64,000 nucleotides of DNA from contig NZ_AP025628.1 of the NCBI RefSeq assembly GCF_025999835.1, positions 2,852,001 through 2,916,000 of the forward strand, written 5' to 3'. Origin of the DNA: Caldinitratiruptor microaerophilus (GTDB lineage: Bacteria; Bacillota; Sulfobacillia; Symbiobacteriales; ZC4RG38). The position numbers and the translations under genes were made by a program. Under the pieces are notes generated by a model, which was not told where the DNA came from, searched no databases, and was given only the letters and a program-made list of their open reading frames with translations. Of the stretch, positions 9,992 to 46,549 are shown piece after piece (the first letter of the stretch is position 1; every line of letters begins with the position of its first letter).

Positions 9992-10696
9992 GTGACCCAC
10001 CTCGAGATCCCGGACGGTGTGATCCCCTGGCCGTACCTGCTTCTGGGATTCGTGGTGACCGGCCTGATCGTGCTTTGGGCCAGCAGGCAGGTACCGAGGG
10101 CCGAAGCTGCGGCGCGGGTGCCCCGCGTCGCGGCGCTGGCCGCTCTCATGGTCCTCGGCCAGTCGGTCCCGCTGGGCTTCATCCCCTTTCACCTCAACCT
10201 GACCGTGCTGGCGGGCATCCTCCTCGGCCCCGCGCTGGGAGTGCTGGCGGCGGTAACGGTCAACATCGTGCTGGCCCTCATGGGGCATGGCGGCGTGACC
10301 GTGATCGGCCTGAACAGCCTGGTGCTGGTGACGGAGACGGTGCTGGGCAGCGTGGCGTTCACGGGGCTCCGGCGGCGGTTGGCGCCCGGGTTGGCGGCCG
10401 CCGCGGCTGCCGGCGTCACCCTTGCGCTGTCCCTGGCCCTCATCCTCGGTGTGGCACGTCTGGCCGGCGCCCAGCCCTGGCAGGTCATTCACGTGGAAGA
10501 GGCCGGCGAAGAGCACGGGGAGGCAACTCCGGAACCGGCGGCCGGGGAGCCCGGGCAGAGCATCCGGACCTTCCTGGCGGCGACCGTGCCCGTGTTCCTG
10601 ATCGGGGCGGGGATCGAGTCGGCCGTCACCGGGGCCGTGACCGGCTACATCGCCCGGGTGCGGCCGGATCTTCTCGGCCTCCCGGGCCTCCGGTAG
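9992..10696 (+). CDS. cbiM: ECF transporter substrate-binding membrane subunit CbiM (Co/Ni)
   Basis: This 234-residue integral membrane protein is the S component of a group I energy-coupling-factor importer for cobalt or nickel. It has about six hydrophobic helices. IPDGVIPWPYL at the N-terminus, PFHLNLTVLAGILLGP, and ALMGHGGVTVIGLNSLVLVTETVLG are characteristic of CbiM/NikM. The usual N-terminus is Met-His-Ile-Pro-Asp; here it reads MTHLEIPDG, so the His next to IPDG is replaced by Glu while another His sits at position 3. A hydrophilic loop (HVEEAGEEHGEATPEP) precedes the last helices, and no separate CbiN is present. The GTG start is followed 12 bases after its stop by cbiQ. Confidence 0.92.
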   Translation: MTHLEIPDGVIPWPYLLLGFVVTGLIVLWASRQVPRAEAAARVPRVAALAALMVLGQSVPLGFIPFHLNLTVLAGILLGPALGVLAAVTVNIVLALMGHGGVTVIGLNSLVLVTETVLGSVAFTGLRRRLAPGLAAAAAAGVTLALSLALILGVARLAGAQPWQVIHVEEAGEEHGEATPEPAAGEPGQSIRTFLAATVPVFLIGAGIESAVTGAVTGYIARVRPDLLGLPGLR

Positions 10697-10708
10697 GGGG
10701 TAAGCGCG

Positions 10709-11419
10709 GTGCACCACCTCGACTTCCTCGACCGGGCCGCGGCCCTGGGCCACAGCCCCCTGCACCGGGCGTCCGCACTGTCCAAGCTCGTCCTCGTGGC
10801 TGCCGTGATCGGCGCGATGCTCAGCGGGGCGGCGCCTTCCTTTTATGTTGCGGCGATGGCGCTCCTCCTCGGGCTGGTGTGGGTCGCCAGGCTGCCCTTG
10901 AAGGAGTTCCTGGAGCTCCTCGCCTACCCCGTGGTCTTCGCCGGCGTCTTCGCGGTGAGCGGCCTCGTGCCGGCCGGCGAAGCCCGGTGGGTGGTCGTCG
11001 CCCGCTCGGCGACCGTGGCGCTGGCCGTGCTCCTCCTGTTCGCCACGACGTTCTACGGGGACGTCTTCGCCGCGCTGCGCCTGTTCATGCCGGGGGTGCT
11101 GGGAGACGTGCTGCTCCTCACGTACCGGTCGTTCTTCATCCTCGCCCGGGAAGTGCAGCGCACCCTGACGGCGATCCGCCTCAAGGGCGCCGGCCGCGGC
11201 CTCGCCCTGGCCCACCACGTGCGCACCGTGGGCGCCGTGATGGGGCTCGCCGCCGTCCACGCCCTGGAGATGGCCGAGCGCGTGCACCGGATCCTGGCCC
11301 TGCGGGGCTACCGGGGCGTCATCCCGGCCGGGCGGGCCTGGTGGCGGCCCACCCCCGACGACTGGCTGCCGATCCTGGCGGCGGCGGCCGTCGTCGCGCT
11401 GGCGGCCGCCTTGCGGTAA
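10709..11419 (+). CDS. cbiQ: ECF transporter transmembrane coupling subunit CbiQ
   Basis: This 236-residue T component couples the ATPase to the CbiM substrate subunit. It begins with His-rich MHHLDFLDRAAALGHSPLHR, as in many CbiQ proteins, and has about five hydrophobic segments. It carries the T-component coupling motif ERVHRILALRGYRG near residue 200, whose Ala-x-Arg-Gly core docks onto the ATPase. A second conserved cluster TYRSFFILAREVQRTLTAIRLKGA is visible. A GTG start at 10709 fits the 12-base gap after cbiM, and cbiO follows with a strong AAGGAGGG. Confidence 0.93.
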   Translation: MHHLDFLDRAAALGHSPLHRASALSKLVLVAAVIGAMLSGAAPSFYVAAMALLLGLVWVARLPLKEFLELLAYPVVFAGVFAVSGLVPAGEARWVVVARSATVALAVLLLFATTFYGDVFAALRLFMPGVLGDVLLLTYRSFFILAREVQRTLTAIRLKGAGRGLALAHHVRTVGAVMGLAAVHALEMAERVHRILALRGYRGVIPAGRAWWRPTPDDWLPILAAAAVVALAAALR

Positions 11420-11433
11420 GGAGGGAATCCGGC

Positions 11434-12339
11434 GTGACCGACGTGGTCCGCGTCTGCGAACTCCACCACGTGTACCCCGGCGGGGGCGAGGTCACCCTCT
11501 CCGGTCAGGACTTCGTCGTGGGTCCGGGGGAACGGGTGGCCATCCTGGGGCCCAACGGGTCGGGGAAAACGACGCTCCTCCTCCACATGGTCGGCCTCCT
11601 CACCGCGACCTCGTGCCAGCACTGCACGGTGCTGGGGCTGGACCCCAAGCGCGATTTCGGGCAGCTCATCCGGCGGGTGGGGGTGGTGCTGCAGCACGTC
11701 GACGAGCAGATCATCGGCCCCACCGTCTGGGACGACGTCGCCTTCGGCCCCAAGAGCCACGGCCTGCCCCCCGCCGAGGTGCGGGCCCGCGCCGAGGAGG
11801 CGCTCGACCTGGTCGGCATCCGGCACCTCGCCGGCCGGGTCCCGCACTACCTGAGCGGCGGCGAGCGCAAGAAGGTCGCCATCGCAGGAGCGCTGGCGAT
11901 GCGCCCCGAACTCCTCATCCTCGACGAGCCCTTCGACAATCTCGATCCCCGCTCCCGGGCGGACCTCATCGAGATCCTCAACCGTCTCAACCGTGAGCGG
12001 GGCATGGCGCTGGTGGTGACGACGCACGACGTCAACCTGGTGCCCCGCATCGCCGACGTGGTGTACGTGTTCAGCCGCGGCCGGATCCTGGCACGGGGGA
12101 CACCGCTGGAGGTGTTCCGCCGGCCCGAGCTGCTGAGCGAGGCAAACCTCGAGCCGCCCGCGCTGATCCAGCTCTTCGCGGCGCTCGAGCGCCGGGGCGT
12201 GCCCGTGTCGCCCCCGGCGAGCGTCGAGGACGCGGCCGAGCAGATCTGGCGCCTCCTGGGCAGGAGCGGGCAGGGAGATCACAGCGATGGCCCGCCGCCG
12301 GCCTTGCCCCGCGCGCGGGTCGCGGGCCAGGGGGGATAG
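11434..12339 (+). CDS. cbiO: ECF transporter ATP-binding subunit CbiO
   Basis: This 301-residue ABC ATPase energises the Co/Ni importer. Walker A is LGPNGSGKTTLL, the Q-loop region is VGVVLQHVDEQIIGPTVWDDVAFGP, the signature is YLSGGERKKVAIAGAL, Walker B is LLILDEPFDNLDP, and the switch histidine is in TTHDVN. The FGP segment after the Q-loop is typical of ECF ATPases. The GTG at 11434 has AAGGAGGG 8 bases upstream. The C-terminal about 30 residues are disordered and overlap the region just before fur. An upstream in-frame extension is only an alternative frame of cbiM and cbiQ. Confidence 0.96.
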   Translation: MTDVVRVCELHHVYPGGGEVTLSGQDFVVGPGERVAILGPNGSGKTTLLLHMVGLLTATSCQHCTVLGLDPKRDFGQLIRRVGVVLQHVDEQIIGPTVWDDVAFGPKSHGLPPAEVRARAEEALDLVGIRHLAGRVPHYLSGGERKKVAIAGALAMRPELLILDEPFDNLDPRSRADLIEILNRLNRERGMALVVTTHDVNLVPRIADVVYVFSRGRILARGTPLEVFRRPELLSEANLEPPALIQLFAALERRGVPVSPPASVEDAAEQIWRLLGRSGQGDHSDGPPPALPRARVAGQGG

Positions 12340-12343
12340 TTCC

Positions 12344-12811
12344 GTGGAACCCGGGGACCTCGAGCGGCAGGGACTCCGCCTGACCCGCCAGCGGCGGGAG
12401 CTTCTCGAAGTCCTGCGGCGGAGCCCCGGCATGCTGACCGCCGAGGAGCTGCACCGGCGGGTGGCCCAGCGCCAGCCCGCGGTGAGCCTCTCCACCATCT
12501 ACCGCAACCTGGACATCCTCACCGAGGCCGGGCTGGTGTGCAAGGTCGAGATCGGCGACGGGTTCGCCCGGTACGAACTGCGCCGCACCGAGGGCCACCA
12601 CCACCACCTCGTCTGCGTCCGCTGCGGGCGGTCGGAAAGCATCCACTGCCCGGTGACCGGCATCGAGGAGCTCTTTGGCCGCCGGGGGTTCCAGGTGACC
12701 GGCCACCGCTTCGTCGTCTACGGGTACTGTCCGGCCTGCCGGGATTCGGCCGGTACCGGGCCGGCCTCGGACGGGCCTCCCGGTACCCGGGCACCGGACC
12801 GGGACGGCTGA
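12344..12811 (+). CDS. Fur-family metal-responsive repressor
   Basis: This 155-residue winged-helix regulator of the Fur/Zur/Nur family binds operators when loaded with metal. The DNA-binding part runs from LERQGLRLTRQRRELLEVLRRS to VSLSTIYRNLDILTEAGLV. The metal and dimer part has GHHHHLVCVRCGRSESI with the first CxxC and a second CPAC near residue 137, a structural zinc site. The GTG at 12344 is preferred (GGGGGA upstream); a longer ATG at 12287 overlaps cbiO. Being last in the Co/Ni importer operon suggests it senses nickel or cobalt and represses this operon, possibly through the direct repeats at 9898-9928. The metal cannot be told from sequence. Confidence 0.9.
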   Translation: MEPGDLERQGLRLTRQRRELLEVLRRSPGMLTAEELHRRVAQRQPAVSLSTIYRNLDILTEAGLVCKVEIGDGFARYELRRTEGHHHHLVCVRCGRSESIHCPVTGIEELFGRRGFQVTGHRFVVYGYCPACRDSAGTGPASDGPPGTRAPDRDG

Positions 12812-12899: not shown

Positions 12900-13709
12900 A
12901 TGGATGTCGGCTTCATCGGCACCGGCAGCATGGGCAGCCTTCTCATCCGCTCGCTCGTCCGCTACGGCGCGCTCCGCCCCGGCGCGGTGTGGGCGGCCAA
13001 CCGGACCCCGGCCAAGCTCGAGCGCCTGGCGAGCGAGGTCCCGGGCGTCCACCCGGCGCCGGCCCGCGAGGTGGTCCGGCGCTGCCCGCTCGTGTTCCTG
13101 TGCGTCAAGCCGGGCGAGACCGGTGCGGCGCTCGAGGAGGTCGGGGACGACCTCACCCCGGACCACCTCCTCGTGATCCTGAGCAACATGCTCCCCCTCG
13201 AGGCGGTCGAGGCGCGCACCGCCGCCCGGGTCGCCAAGGTGATCCCTTCCCTCGCCCACCAGGTGGGCGGGGGCGTCGCGCTGATCATGTACGGGAACCG
13301 GGTGCGCCCTGCCGACCGGCAGCGCCTGGAGCGGCTCCTCGCCCCCATCGCCCGGCCCCTCGTCATCCGGGAGCACCAGGGCCGGACAGCGGCCGACATC
13401 ACCTCGTGCGGCCCCGCCTTCCTGGCCTGCGTCCTGCAGGCGATGGCCCGGGCCGCTGCCGAGGCCCAGCCCGACCTCCCCCTGCCGGTGGCGGAGGCCC
13501 TGGTCCGCGAGACCGCCCTGGCCACGGCCCGCCTCCTGGCCGAGGACGGCATGACCTTCGACGAGGTGATCGCCCGCATCTCCGTGCCGGGCGGCATCAC
13601 CGCCGAGGCCGTCCGGCTCCTCGCCGAGCAGGTCCCGGCTGCCTGGGAGGCGGTGTTCCGCACGACCCGGGAGGTCGAGGAGGAGAAGCGCCGGCGGCTG
13701 CGGCTGTGA
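12900..13709 (+). CDS. ComER-like / pyrroline-5-carboxylate reductase-family protein
   Basis: This 269-residue NAD(P)-binding protein resembles ProC but is closer to ComER-like relatives of uncertain substrate. The Rossmann motif is GFIGTGSMGSLL at the N-terminus, FLCVKPGE lies near residue 70, and the family helix DEVIARISVPGGITAEAVRLL is near residue 220. KVIPSLAHQVGGGVALI replaces the PNTP-type proline-binding segment of true ProC, which argues against simple proline synthesis. ComER modulates late competence or sporulation signalling in Bacillus; that role here is inference. It follows fur by 88 bases with GGGAGGG before its ATG and may have its own promoter. Confidence 0.85.
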   Translation: MDVGFIGTGSMGSLLIRSLVRYGALRPGAVWAANRTPAKLERLASEVPGVHPAPAREVVRRCPLVFLCVKPGETGAALEEVGDDLTPDHLLVILSNMLPLEAVEARTAARVAKVIPSLAHQVGGGVALIMYGNRVRPADRQRLERLLAPIARPLVIREHQGRTAADITSCGPAFLACVLQAMARAAAEAQPDLPLPVAEALVRETALATARLLAEDGMTFDEVIARISVPGGITAEAVRLLAEQVPAAWEAVFRTTREVEEEKRRRLRL

Positions 13710-13839
13710 AGAAGCCCCGTGCCCGACCGCCCTGGGCGGGAGGACGTGGTACACGGTCCCCGTTTGCGGTAGTGTAGAGGGAGGCGGGGCGGGCCCTGCG
13801 CGGCCCACCTCGCCAGACCGCAGACGAGGAGGCCTCTCC

Positions 13840-14106
13840 ATGCGCATCCGGATCGAGTTCTGCACCGTCTGAAAGTACTTCCCCCGCGCCGCCCGTGTGG
13901 CGGAGGAACTGGTGGGGCGCTTCGGCACCGAGATCGCCGAGATCGCCCTGATCCCCGGCAGCGGCGGGGTCTTCAAGGTGGAGTGCAACGGCACCCTCCT
14001 CTTCTCGAAGAAAGAGGAAGGGAACCGGTTCCCCGAGTACGGCGAGATCTCGGCCCGCATCGCCGAGCGGCGGGGCGAGTGGGAACGGCAGGCGGGCGGG
14101 GCCTAG
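13840..14106 (+). CDS. Probable selenoprotein, SelW/Rdx family (in-frame UGA = Sec)
   Basis: This 88-codon gene reads MRIRIEFCTV-U-KYFPRAARVAEEL, with TGA at 13870-13872 as codon 11, and continues in frame for 77 residues to a TAG. The part after the UGA is a clear Rdx (SelT/SelW/SelH) domain: IPGSGGVFKVECNG and LLFSKKEEGNRFPEYGEI match the GGxFEV and SKKxxGRFP signatures of this thioredoxin-like family. The UGA falls at the second position of the CxxC/CxxU redox motif (Cys8, Sec11). GAGGAGG sits 9 bases upstream of ATG 13840, so translation begins before the UGA. A hairpin follows the UGA within the coding region. The alternative is a Cys-to-stop mutation. A redox role is inferred; its partner is unknown. 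Confidence 0.8.
13879..13908 (+). promoter_or_regulatory. Candidate bacterial SECIS hairpin
   Basis: Just after the in-frame UGA, CCGCC (13889-13893) pairs with GGCGG (13899-13903), leaving a five-base loop CGTGT. Below it TTCC (13879-13882) can pair with GGAA (13905-13908) across an asymmetric internal loop. The loop G lies 22 bases past the UGA, a plausible distance for a SelB-binding element. Such stems arise easily in GC-rich DNA, so this is moderate support only. Confidence 0.45.
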
Positions 14107-14110
14107 CGCC

Positions 14111-14728
14111 ATGGGCTACGCCGCCGTCGTCCTGGCCGCCGGCTCCGCCACCCGGATGGGCCGGCCCAAGCAGCTGGAGCCCGTCGGGGGCCGCCCCCTC
14201 GTGCGCTGGGCGGTGGAGGCGGCGCTCGCCGCCGGCCTGGGCCCGGTCGTGGTCGTCACCGGGGCGGCGGCGGAGGCCGTCGCCGCGGCGGTTGCGGACC
14301 TGCCCGTCCGCACGGTGCACAATCCCGACCACCCGGCCGGCATGGGCAGGTCGGTGGCCGCCGGGGTGGCGGCGCTCGGGCCGGAGGTGCGGGCGGCCGT
14401 CGTCCTGCTGGGCGACCAGCCCCTGGTCCCGCCGGAGCTGCTCGGGGCGCTCGTGCGCGCCCACGACCCGCCCGGGGCGACCATCGTCCGGCCGGGCTAC
14501 CCCTCCGGCCGGCTGGCGCCCCCGGCGCTCTTCGACCGGCGCCACTTCCCCGAGCTGGCCGCCCTCACCGGCGACCGGGGGGCATCGGCGGTGATCGCCC
14601 GTCACCCGGACTGCACCCGGGTGGTCCCCTGGCCCGACGACCTCCCCCTCCTCGACGTGGACACACCCGAGGATCTGGAAACCGTTCGGAGGTACGTGAG
14701 CGACGTTGGATTCACCTCGTCCTGGTGA
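14111..14728 (+). CDS. MocA/MobA-like nucleotidyltransferase
   Basis: This 205-residue NTP-transferase most resembles MocA, which adds CMP to molybdopterin to make the cytosine dinucleotide cofactor of xanthine-dehydrogenase-type enzymes. The signature VLAAGSATRMGRPKQLEPVGGRPL lies at residues 6-29, VLLGDQPLV near residue 100 carries the metal-binding Asp, and LLDVDTPEDLETV lies near the end. It starts 4 bases after the selenoprotein gene, suggesting co-transcription. That pairing fits organisms with selenium-dependent molybdenum hydroxylases, but no such enzyme is in the window. MobA (GMP transfer) or a sugar nucleotidyltransferase are alternatives. Confidence 0.82.
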   Translation: MGYAAVVLAAGSATRMGRPKQLEPVGGRPLVRWAVEAALAAGLGPVVVVTGAAAEAVAAAVADLPVRTVHNPDHPAGMGRSVAAGVAALGPEVRAAVVLLGDQPLVPPELLGALVRAHDPPGATIVRPGYPSGRLAPPALFDRRHFPELAALTGDRGASAVIARHPDCTRVVPWPDDLPLLDVDTPEDLETVRRYVSDVGFTSSW

Positions 14729-14749
14729 AATCAGAAGCGTCGCTGATTT
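14728..14749 (+). terminator. Hairpin after mocA-like gene
   Basis: AAATCAG pairs with CTGATTT across an eight-base loop, overlapping the end of the mocA-like gene. It is AT-rich for this genome and followed by GAAAG, so any terminator function is weak. Confidence 0.35.
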
Positions 14750-15136
14750 GAAAGGGTAGGCTTTGACCTTCGCAGATCTCGGTTCCCCAGCGATGGTGCC
14801 GGGCCAGCTTCAGGTTGGCAGGTCCGTAGCATCCCCGGGCAGATGCGGTCGGCGCGGGTGACGATGGCCATGTGCCGCCCCGTGTCGGGGTCAAGCAGGC
14901 ACAGAATGTATGTACACCGGGCCGTGGTAACCCCGTAACCCCGTATGGACAGGACGCGGACCTAGTAGCGCAGCGTGCGCGGTTGGCCCAACGAAGGCCA
15001 GAGGGTCCCGAAGCAGGCCGGGGACATGCCCCGGCCTGCGCTTTTGCAGGGCTTCGGTGCAGTGCAGCCTGGCTCGAGATGGTAGGGCGATTGCGATAGA
15101 ATTCCAACTGCGGGGCTTTCCCCACCCAGCCCGCCG
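14750..15136. other. Non-coding stretch after mocA
   Basis: About 390 bases with no gene I can support. Short open frames on both strands lack ribosome sites and family resemblance. AACCCCGT is tandemly repeated near 14931-14946. A GCAGGCCGGGG/CCCCGGCCTGC hairpin (15013-15039) ends the stretch from the mocA side. Confidence 0.4.
15013..15046 (+). terminator. Intrinsic terminator
   Basis: A perfect 11-base-pair stem (GCAGGCCGGGG with CCCCGGCCTGC, loop ACATG) is followed on the plus strand by GCTTTTGC. It probably ends transcription from the cbiM-to-mocA direction or of an unrecognised small RNA. Confidence 0.6.
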
Positions 15137-46410: not shown

Positions 46411-46549
46411 CCTCTTATCGGCCGGGGCCGGACGCCACGCCGCACCCCGCTGGCGTTGGCACCCTCCCGGACGGGCCACCCTCGGCGCCGGCCGGCGGGT
46501 TGCCGAGACTTCATCGGGCCAGTCCCTCCGTCTCTCTGGATAAGAGGCC
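46411..46549 (-). promoter_or_regulatory. SAM-I (S-box) riboswitch
   Basis: The minus strand shows the S-box core: CTTATCCAGAGAGACGGAGG at the 5' end, GACTGGCCCGATGAAGTC, CTCGGCAACC, then GGTGCCAA and the closing CCGATAAGAGG that pairs with the 5' CCTCTTATC. SAM binding should favour the downstream terminator and turn metK off. Confidence 0.95.

Follow-up and report, generated by a model that had tools for sequence, protein, structure and literature searches.

In the 64,000-nucleotide window of Caldinitratiruptor microaerophilus DNA that was analyzed here, a TGA codon lies in frame within a small Rdx-type coding sequence, at the place of an active-site cysteine. The question raised by this locus is whether the TGA ends translation, is read as an ordinary amino acid, or is decoded as selenocysteine (Sec). 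From sequence comparison we infer that the gene encodes a SelW-like selenoprotein in which UGA codon 11 is decoded as Sec, with a probability of approximately 0.96.

The Rdx reading frame across the TGA codon

The features of the gene on which the argument rests are as follows.

13827 to 13833, + strand: probable ribosome binding site, within GACGAGGAGG
13840 to 14106, + strand: selW-like gene, 88 aa when TGA is translated as U, with Rdx PF10262 and TIGR02174 matches
13861 to 13872, + strand: active-site motif C-T-V-U (C8-T-V-U11), with the predicted Sec codon TGA at 13870-13872

The ATG at 13840 is preceded by GACGAGGAGG, and the probable ribosome binding site was read directly from the purine-rich GAGGAGG upstream of it. 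Ten codons (MRIRIEFCTV) were found on the 5' side of the TGA, and on its 3' side the frame stays open for another 77, down to a TAG at 14104-14106; the product translated with TGA as U starts MRIRIEFCTVUKYFPRAARVAEELVGRFG. The TGA occupies the second position of the CxxC/CxxU motif near the N-terminus, as is characteristic of the family. This arrangement agreed letter for letter with the original prediction, which had described an ATG with GAGGAGG, 10 codons, TGA and 77 Rdx codons, and had placed the TGA at the second Cys of CxxC. Its claim that gene calling from the GTG at 13897 would miss the active site was also confirmed, as the ORF finder yielded solely a 69-aa ORF from that GTG in this frame, without the CxxU site. 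The gene is corrected here; standard calling would truncate it before the active site.

When the TGA was treated as a residue, Pfam Rdx PF10262 matched residues 2-75 (E 8.7e-24, 84 bits versus a cut-off of 22.6) and TIGR02174 CXXU_selWTH matched with 58.3 bits versus a cut-off of 34.2, placing the product in the SelW/Rdx family by domain-wide model matches. The NF041051 score was slightly under its cut-off. The nearest solved chains by sequence are the Rdx structures 2OJL, 3DEX and 2FA8 (E 2e-16 to 2e-11), which share a common fold family with it. SelW-like proteins with CXXU are presumed to be thiol redox proteins (PMC1088965). By analogy with the family, the C. microaerophilus protein probably has a redox role as well, in which C8-x-x-U11 would form a selenol/thiol pair of the Rdx thioredoxin-like fold and probably carry out thiol-disulphide redox work.

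Conservation of the TGA and the predicted SECIS hairpin

If the TGA were a real stop, the locus would be either a decayed Cys-type Rdx gene or a gene for a functional protein that starts at GTG 13897 and lacks the active site, and the presence of the 69-aa ORF is in line with the latter. The homologues argue against both. SelW-like matches were found in 6/8 Symbiobacteriales genomes, this genome included, and every homologue of the order that covers the codon 11 site has TGA at the identical codon; one more copy, in genome G006, is truncated and does not reach it. Scanning GTDB genomes yielded 71 loci, comprising 45 with TGA, 25 with Cys and 1 truncated, counts that are biased by the scan patterns and are not frequencies. 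The original prediction had proposed aligning homologues at codon 11, and that alignment gave TGA (in 49 homologues besides this one) or Cys (in 25) and never another residue, so that the in-frame TGA is aligned with Sec or Cys throughout. The codons 5' of the TGA are conserved too. Compared with a family mate (L030), the differences 3' of the TGA by codon position were 11, 14 and 27; third positions differ most, which indicates that selection acts at the protein level on this part of the gene. Degenerate DNA patterns, whether of only the motif or of CxxU plus loop, were non-discriminating (1 match versus 1.03 expected). Homologues conserve the codons on both sides of an in-register TGA, and the frame across it is therefore not a chance one. 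Tandem selW-like pairs were seen in two Symbiobacteriales genomes (L023/L026 and L025/L027 in G003 and G004), with TGA in both copies.

When the Sec column was left out of the alignment and a maximum-likelihood tree was computed, the 50 TGA forms and the 25 Cys forms, from more than 10 phyla, fell on opposite sides of one branch (SH-aLRT 99); the alignment is short and few other forks were resolved. The genomic Cys forms of the Rdx family are set apart from the Sec forms by a separate branch. The nearest rows to the C. microaerophilus protein were from two genomes of its own family, ZC4RG38, with 59-61% identity.

An RNA element of the kind expected of a bacterial selenoprotein gene is predicted just downstream of the TGA.

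13889 to 13903, + strand: predicted bacterial SECIS apical hairpin, CCGCC-CGUGU-GGCGG, from covariation in 50 Sec forms and synonymous shuffles

The conserved loop G is position 13895, and the distance from the UGA to the loop is 21 nt. In an ungapped alignment of the 50 Sec forms at the UGA (numbered with the U of UGA as 0), positions +19 to +23 pair with +29 to +33 in a 5-bp stem. The loop of 5 nt is mostly NGKNU (K = G or U) and its G is invariant (50/50), and the stem shows compensatory changes, for example C-G, T-A and G-C at +20/+32. Pairing was found in 236/245 cells, with all five pairs present in 40/49 distinct sequences. When synonymous codons were exchanged among sequences with the same residue in 2000 trials, the mean was 218 (sd 1.9, max 225) and 0/2000 reached 236, which shows selection on the hairpin over and above that on the protein. 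In the Cys forms, only 46/120 cells pair at these positions and no stem is complete. The bacterial SECIS model calls for a G at loop position 1 or 2, a loop 16-37 nt from the UGA, a stem of at least 4 bp and an MFE of -7.5 or lower (PMC13188914). The hairpin here has a CGUGU loop 21 nt from the UGA, 5 bp and -8.8 kcal/mol locally, although globally this sequence has a more stable fold. The covarying hairpin of the Sec forms therefore fits a bacterial SECIS.

Folding of the sequence by itself favored competing hairpins, at -18.1 versus -11.7 kcal/mol for the conserved hairpin over 46 nt and at -9.6 versus -8.8 kcal/mol locally, and the conserved hairpin was dominant only when the fold was limited to its own stem. 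Single-sequence folding of the region gave a z of -1.9 for the window's sequence and -0.7 to 0.8 for relatives. Because this support is mixed, the SECIS assignment is based on the comparison among homologues. A ribosome paused at the UGA and covering part of the competing arm, together with SelB binding, could shift the fold to the conserved hairpin.

Sec machinery and other readings of the UGA

C. microaerophilus JCM16183 is a nitrate-reducing thermophile related to Symbiobacterium and was sequenced by PacBio (PMC9933637); its genome consists of one contig of 3,599,694 bp. A lack of Sec machinery in this genome would have refuted the original prediction, but selA, selB, selC and selD are all present, as in bacteria that make selenoproteins. 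The genes selA (595 bits), selB (376 bits) and two copies of selD (377 and 362 bits) scored above their cut-offs. A tRNA-Sec gene with a UCA anticodon lies at 2027628-2027722 of the genome contig (70 bits; called SeC by ARAGORN), approximately 12 kb from selD-selA. One selD adjoins selA and the other is flanked by a LysR regulator on one side and a two-component system on the other. A candidate second selB (locus L004, 202 bits) was below the cut-off with a 413-aa frame, and is presumably EF-Tu. Further genes with an in-frame TGA are, in genome contig coordinates:

2013538 to 2014461, - strand: selD, with TGA at the known catalytic Sec/Cys position
1648211 to 1649131, + strand: selD, with TGA at the same catalytic position
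1572348 to 1573112, - strand: formate-dehydrogenase-like gene, with TGA in HARIUHSSTV
2301506 to 2302258, - strand: formate-dehydrogenase-like gene, with TGA in HARIUHSSTV

The contexts of the two SelD codons are SKAGUGCKIG and SPGSGUACKIG, and both formate-dehydrogenase-like genes are probable further selenoproteins. Counting these four and the SelW-like gene, the organism probably makes at least five selenoproteins. The SECIS-like hairpin and the full Sec machinery also speak against a real stop, which we regard as very improbable.

A different reading would have the UGA translated as another residue, for instance Cys, inserted by a tRNA that reads UGA, or Trp, through near-cognate readthrough. 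The genome does hold a tRNA-Cys gene that resembles tRNA-Sec, outside the window on the - strand at 347405-347495 of the genome contig (L014:1501-1591). It scored 58 bits against the tRNA-Sec family, has a long variable arm, U73 and an encoded CCA, and resembles the published selC*-type tRNA-Cys, of which forms with a UCA anticodon are known in other bacteria (PMC7609411). However, the anticodon of the C. microaerophilus tRNA is GCA, which reads UGU/UGC; it was considered as a second selC and proved to be a tRNA-Cys. Moreover, only one cysS and one selB scored above their cut-offs in the genome, which gave no sign of an additional system for charging or delivery, and the genome has a tRNA-Sec whose anticodon is UCA. 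Insertion of another residue is accordingly rated as extremely improbable. No match to this tRNA-Cys was found in the other seven Symbiobacteriales genomes, and a second tRNA-Cys-like match was noted at 1129359 of the genome contig. An error in a Cys codon is about as improbable: one base separates TGA from TGC/TGT, and yet the PacBio sequencing (PMC9933637) and the same TGA in independently sequenced relatives make such an error very unlikely, and the protein groups with the Sec forms in the tree and not with the Cys subfamily.

Decoding as Sec remains the preferred reading, in which UGA codon 11 would be translated by tRNA-Sec(UCA) and SelB with the help of the SECIS hairpin 21 nt downstream.

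Genomic neighborhood and comparison with known SelW-like selenoproteins

The genes around selW on the + strand, and one further element of the window, are listed below.

9992 to 12811, + strand: Co/Ni uptake genes CbiM and CbiQ, an apparent ABC ATPase, then a Fur-family regulator; the group immediately precedes the ComER-selW pair
12900 to 13709, + strand: ComER/ProC-like gene upstream of the selW-like gene (PRK07680 ComER, 205 bits, below the cut-off of 278)
14111 to 14728, + strand: MocA/MobA-like nucleotidyltransferase (PF12804, E 5.6e-39; TIGR03310, 131.6 bits, below cut-off)
46412 to 46546, - strand: SAM riboswitch (74.8 bits)

The MocA-like gene begins 4 bp downstream of the selW-like gene and is possibly co-transcribed with it; a scan of 13600-14900 for sigma-70 promoters found none. 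The synteny comparison did not find a MocA-like gene beside SelW in relatives. The original prediction had seen in the Co/Ni uptake genes and the MocA-like gene a link to Mo/Se enzymes. That link is weak, and the lack of conservation of the MocA-like gene beside SelW means that it is not supported through this neighbor, although candidates for Mo-dependent selenoproteins are present elsewhere in the genome. The ComER/ProC-like gene, which is 58% identical in both family mates, is the sole conserved neighbor, within the family. The neighborhood is unlikely to determine a specific redox partner, be it ComER/ProC-like or MocA-like, for the SelW-like selenoprotein of this lineage; if it did, bacterial SelW would gain a concrete role in physiology.

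The literature search found no paper naming this gene in C. microaerophilus. A SelW-like selenoprotein of Symbiobacterium thermophilum was listed in 2006 (Zhang et al., PMC1794560). It belongs to the same order and family of proteins, and has CxxU, TGA at the same codon and a SECIS-like hairpin. It differs in being approximately 49% identical to the C. microaerophilus protein and in an N-terminus that is 2-3 residues longer, and no ComER gene was found beside it. No selenoprotein family was more abundant in the Sargasso Sea set than the SelW-like one; its proteins and other bacterial SelW-like selenoproteins are alike in CXXU and in a SECIS with an apical-loop G, and differ in organism only (PMC1088965). 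Since the family is known in bacteria and has had a listed member in S. thermophilum since 2006, the C. microaerophilus gene adds a member and not a new kind. It leaves the known mechanism unchanged, and it extends the known Symbiobacteriales selenoproteome to a microaerophilic, cultured thermophile from a hot spring.
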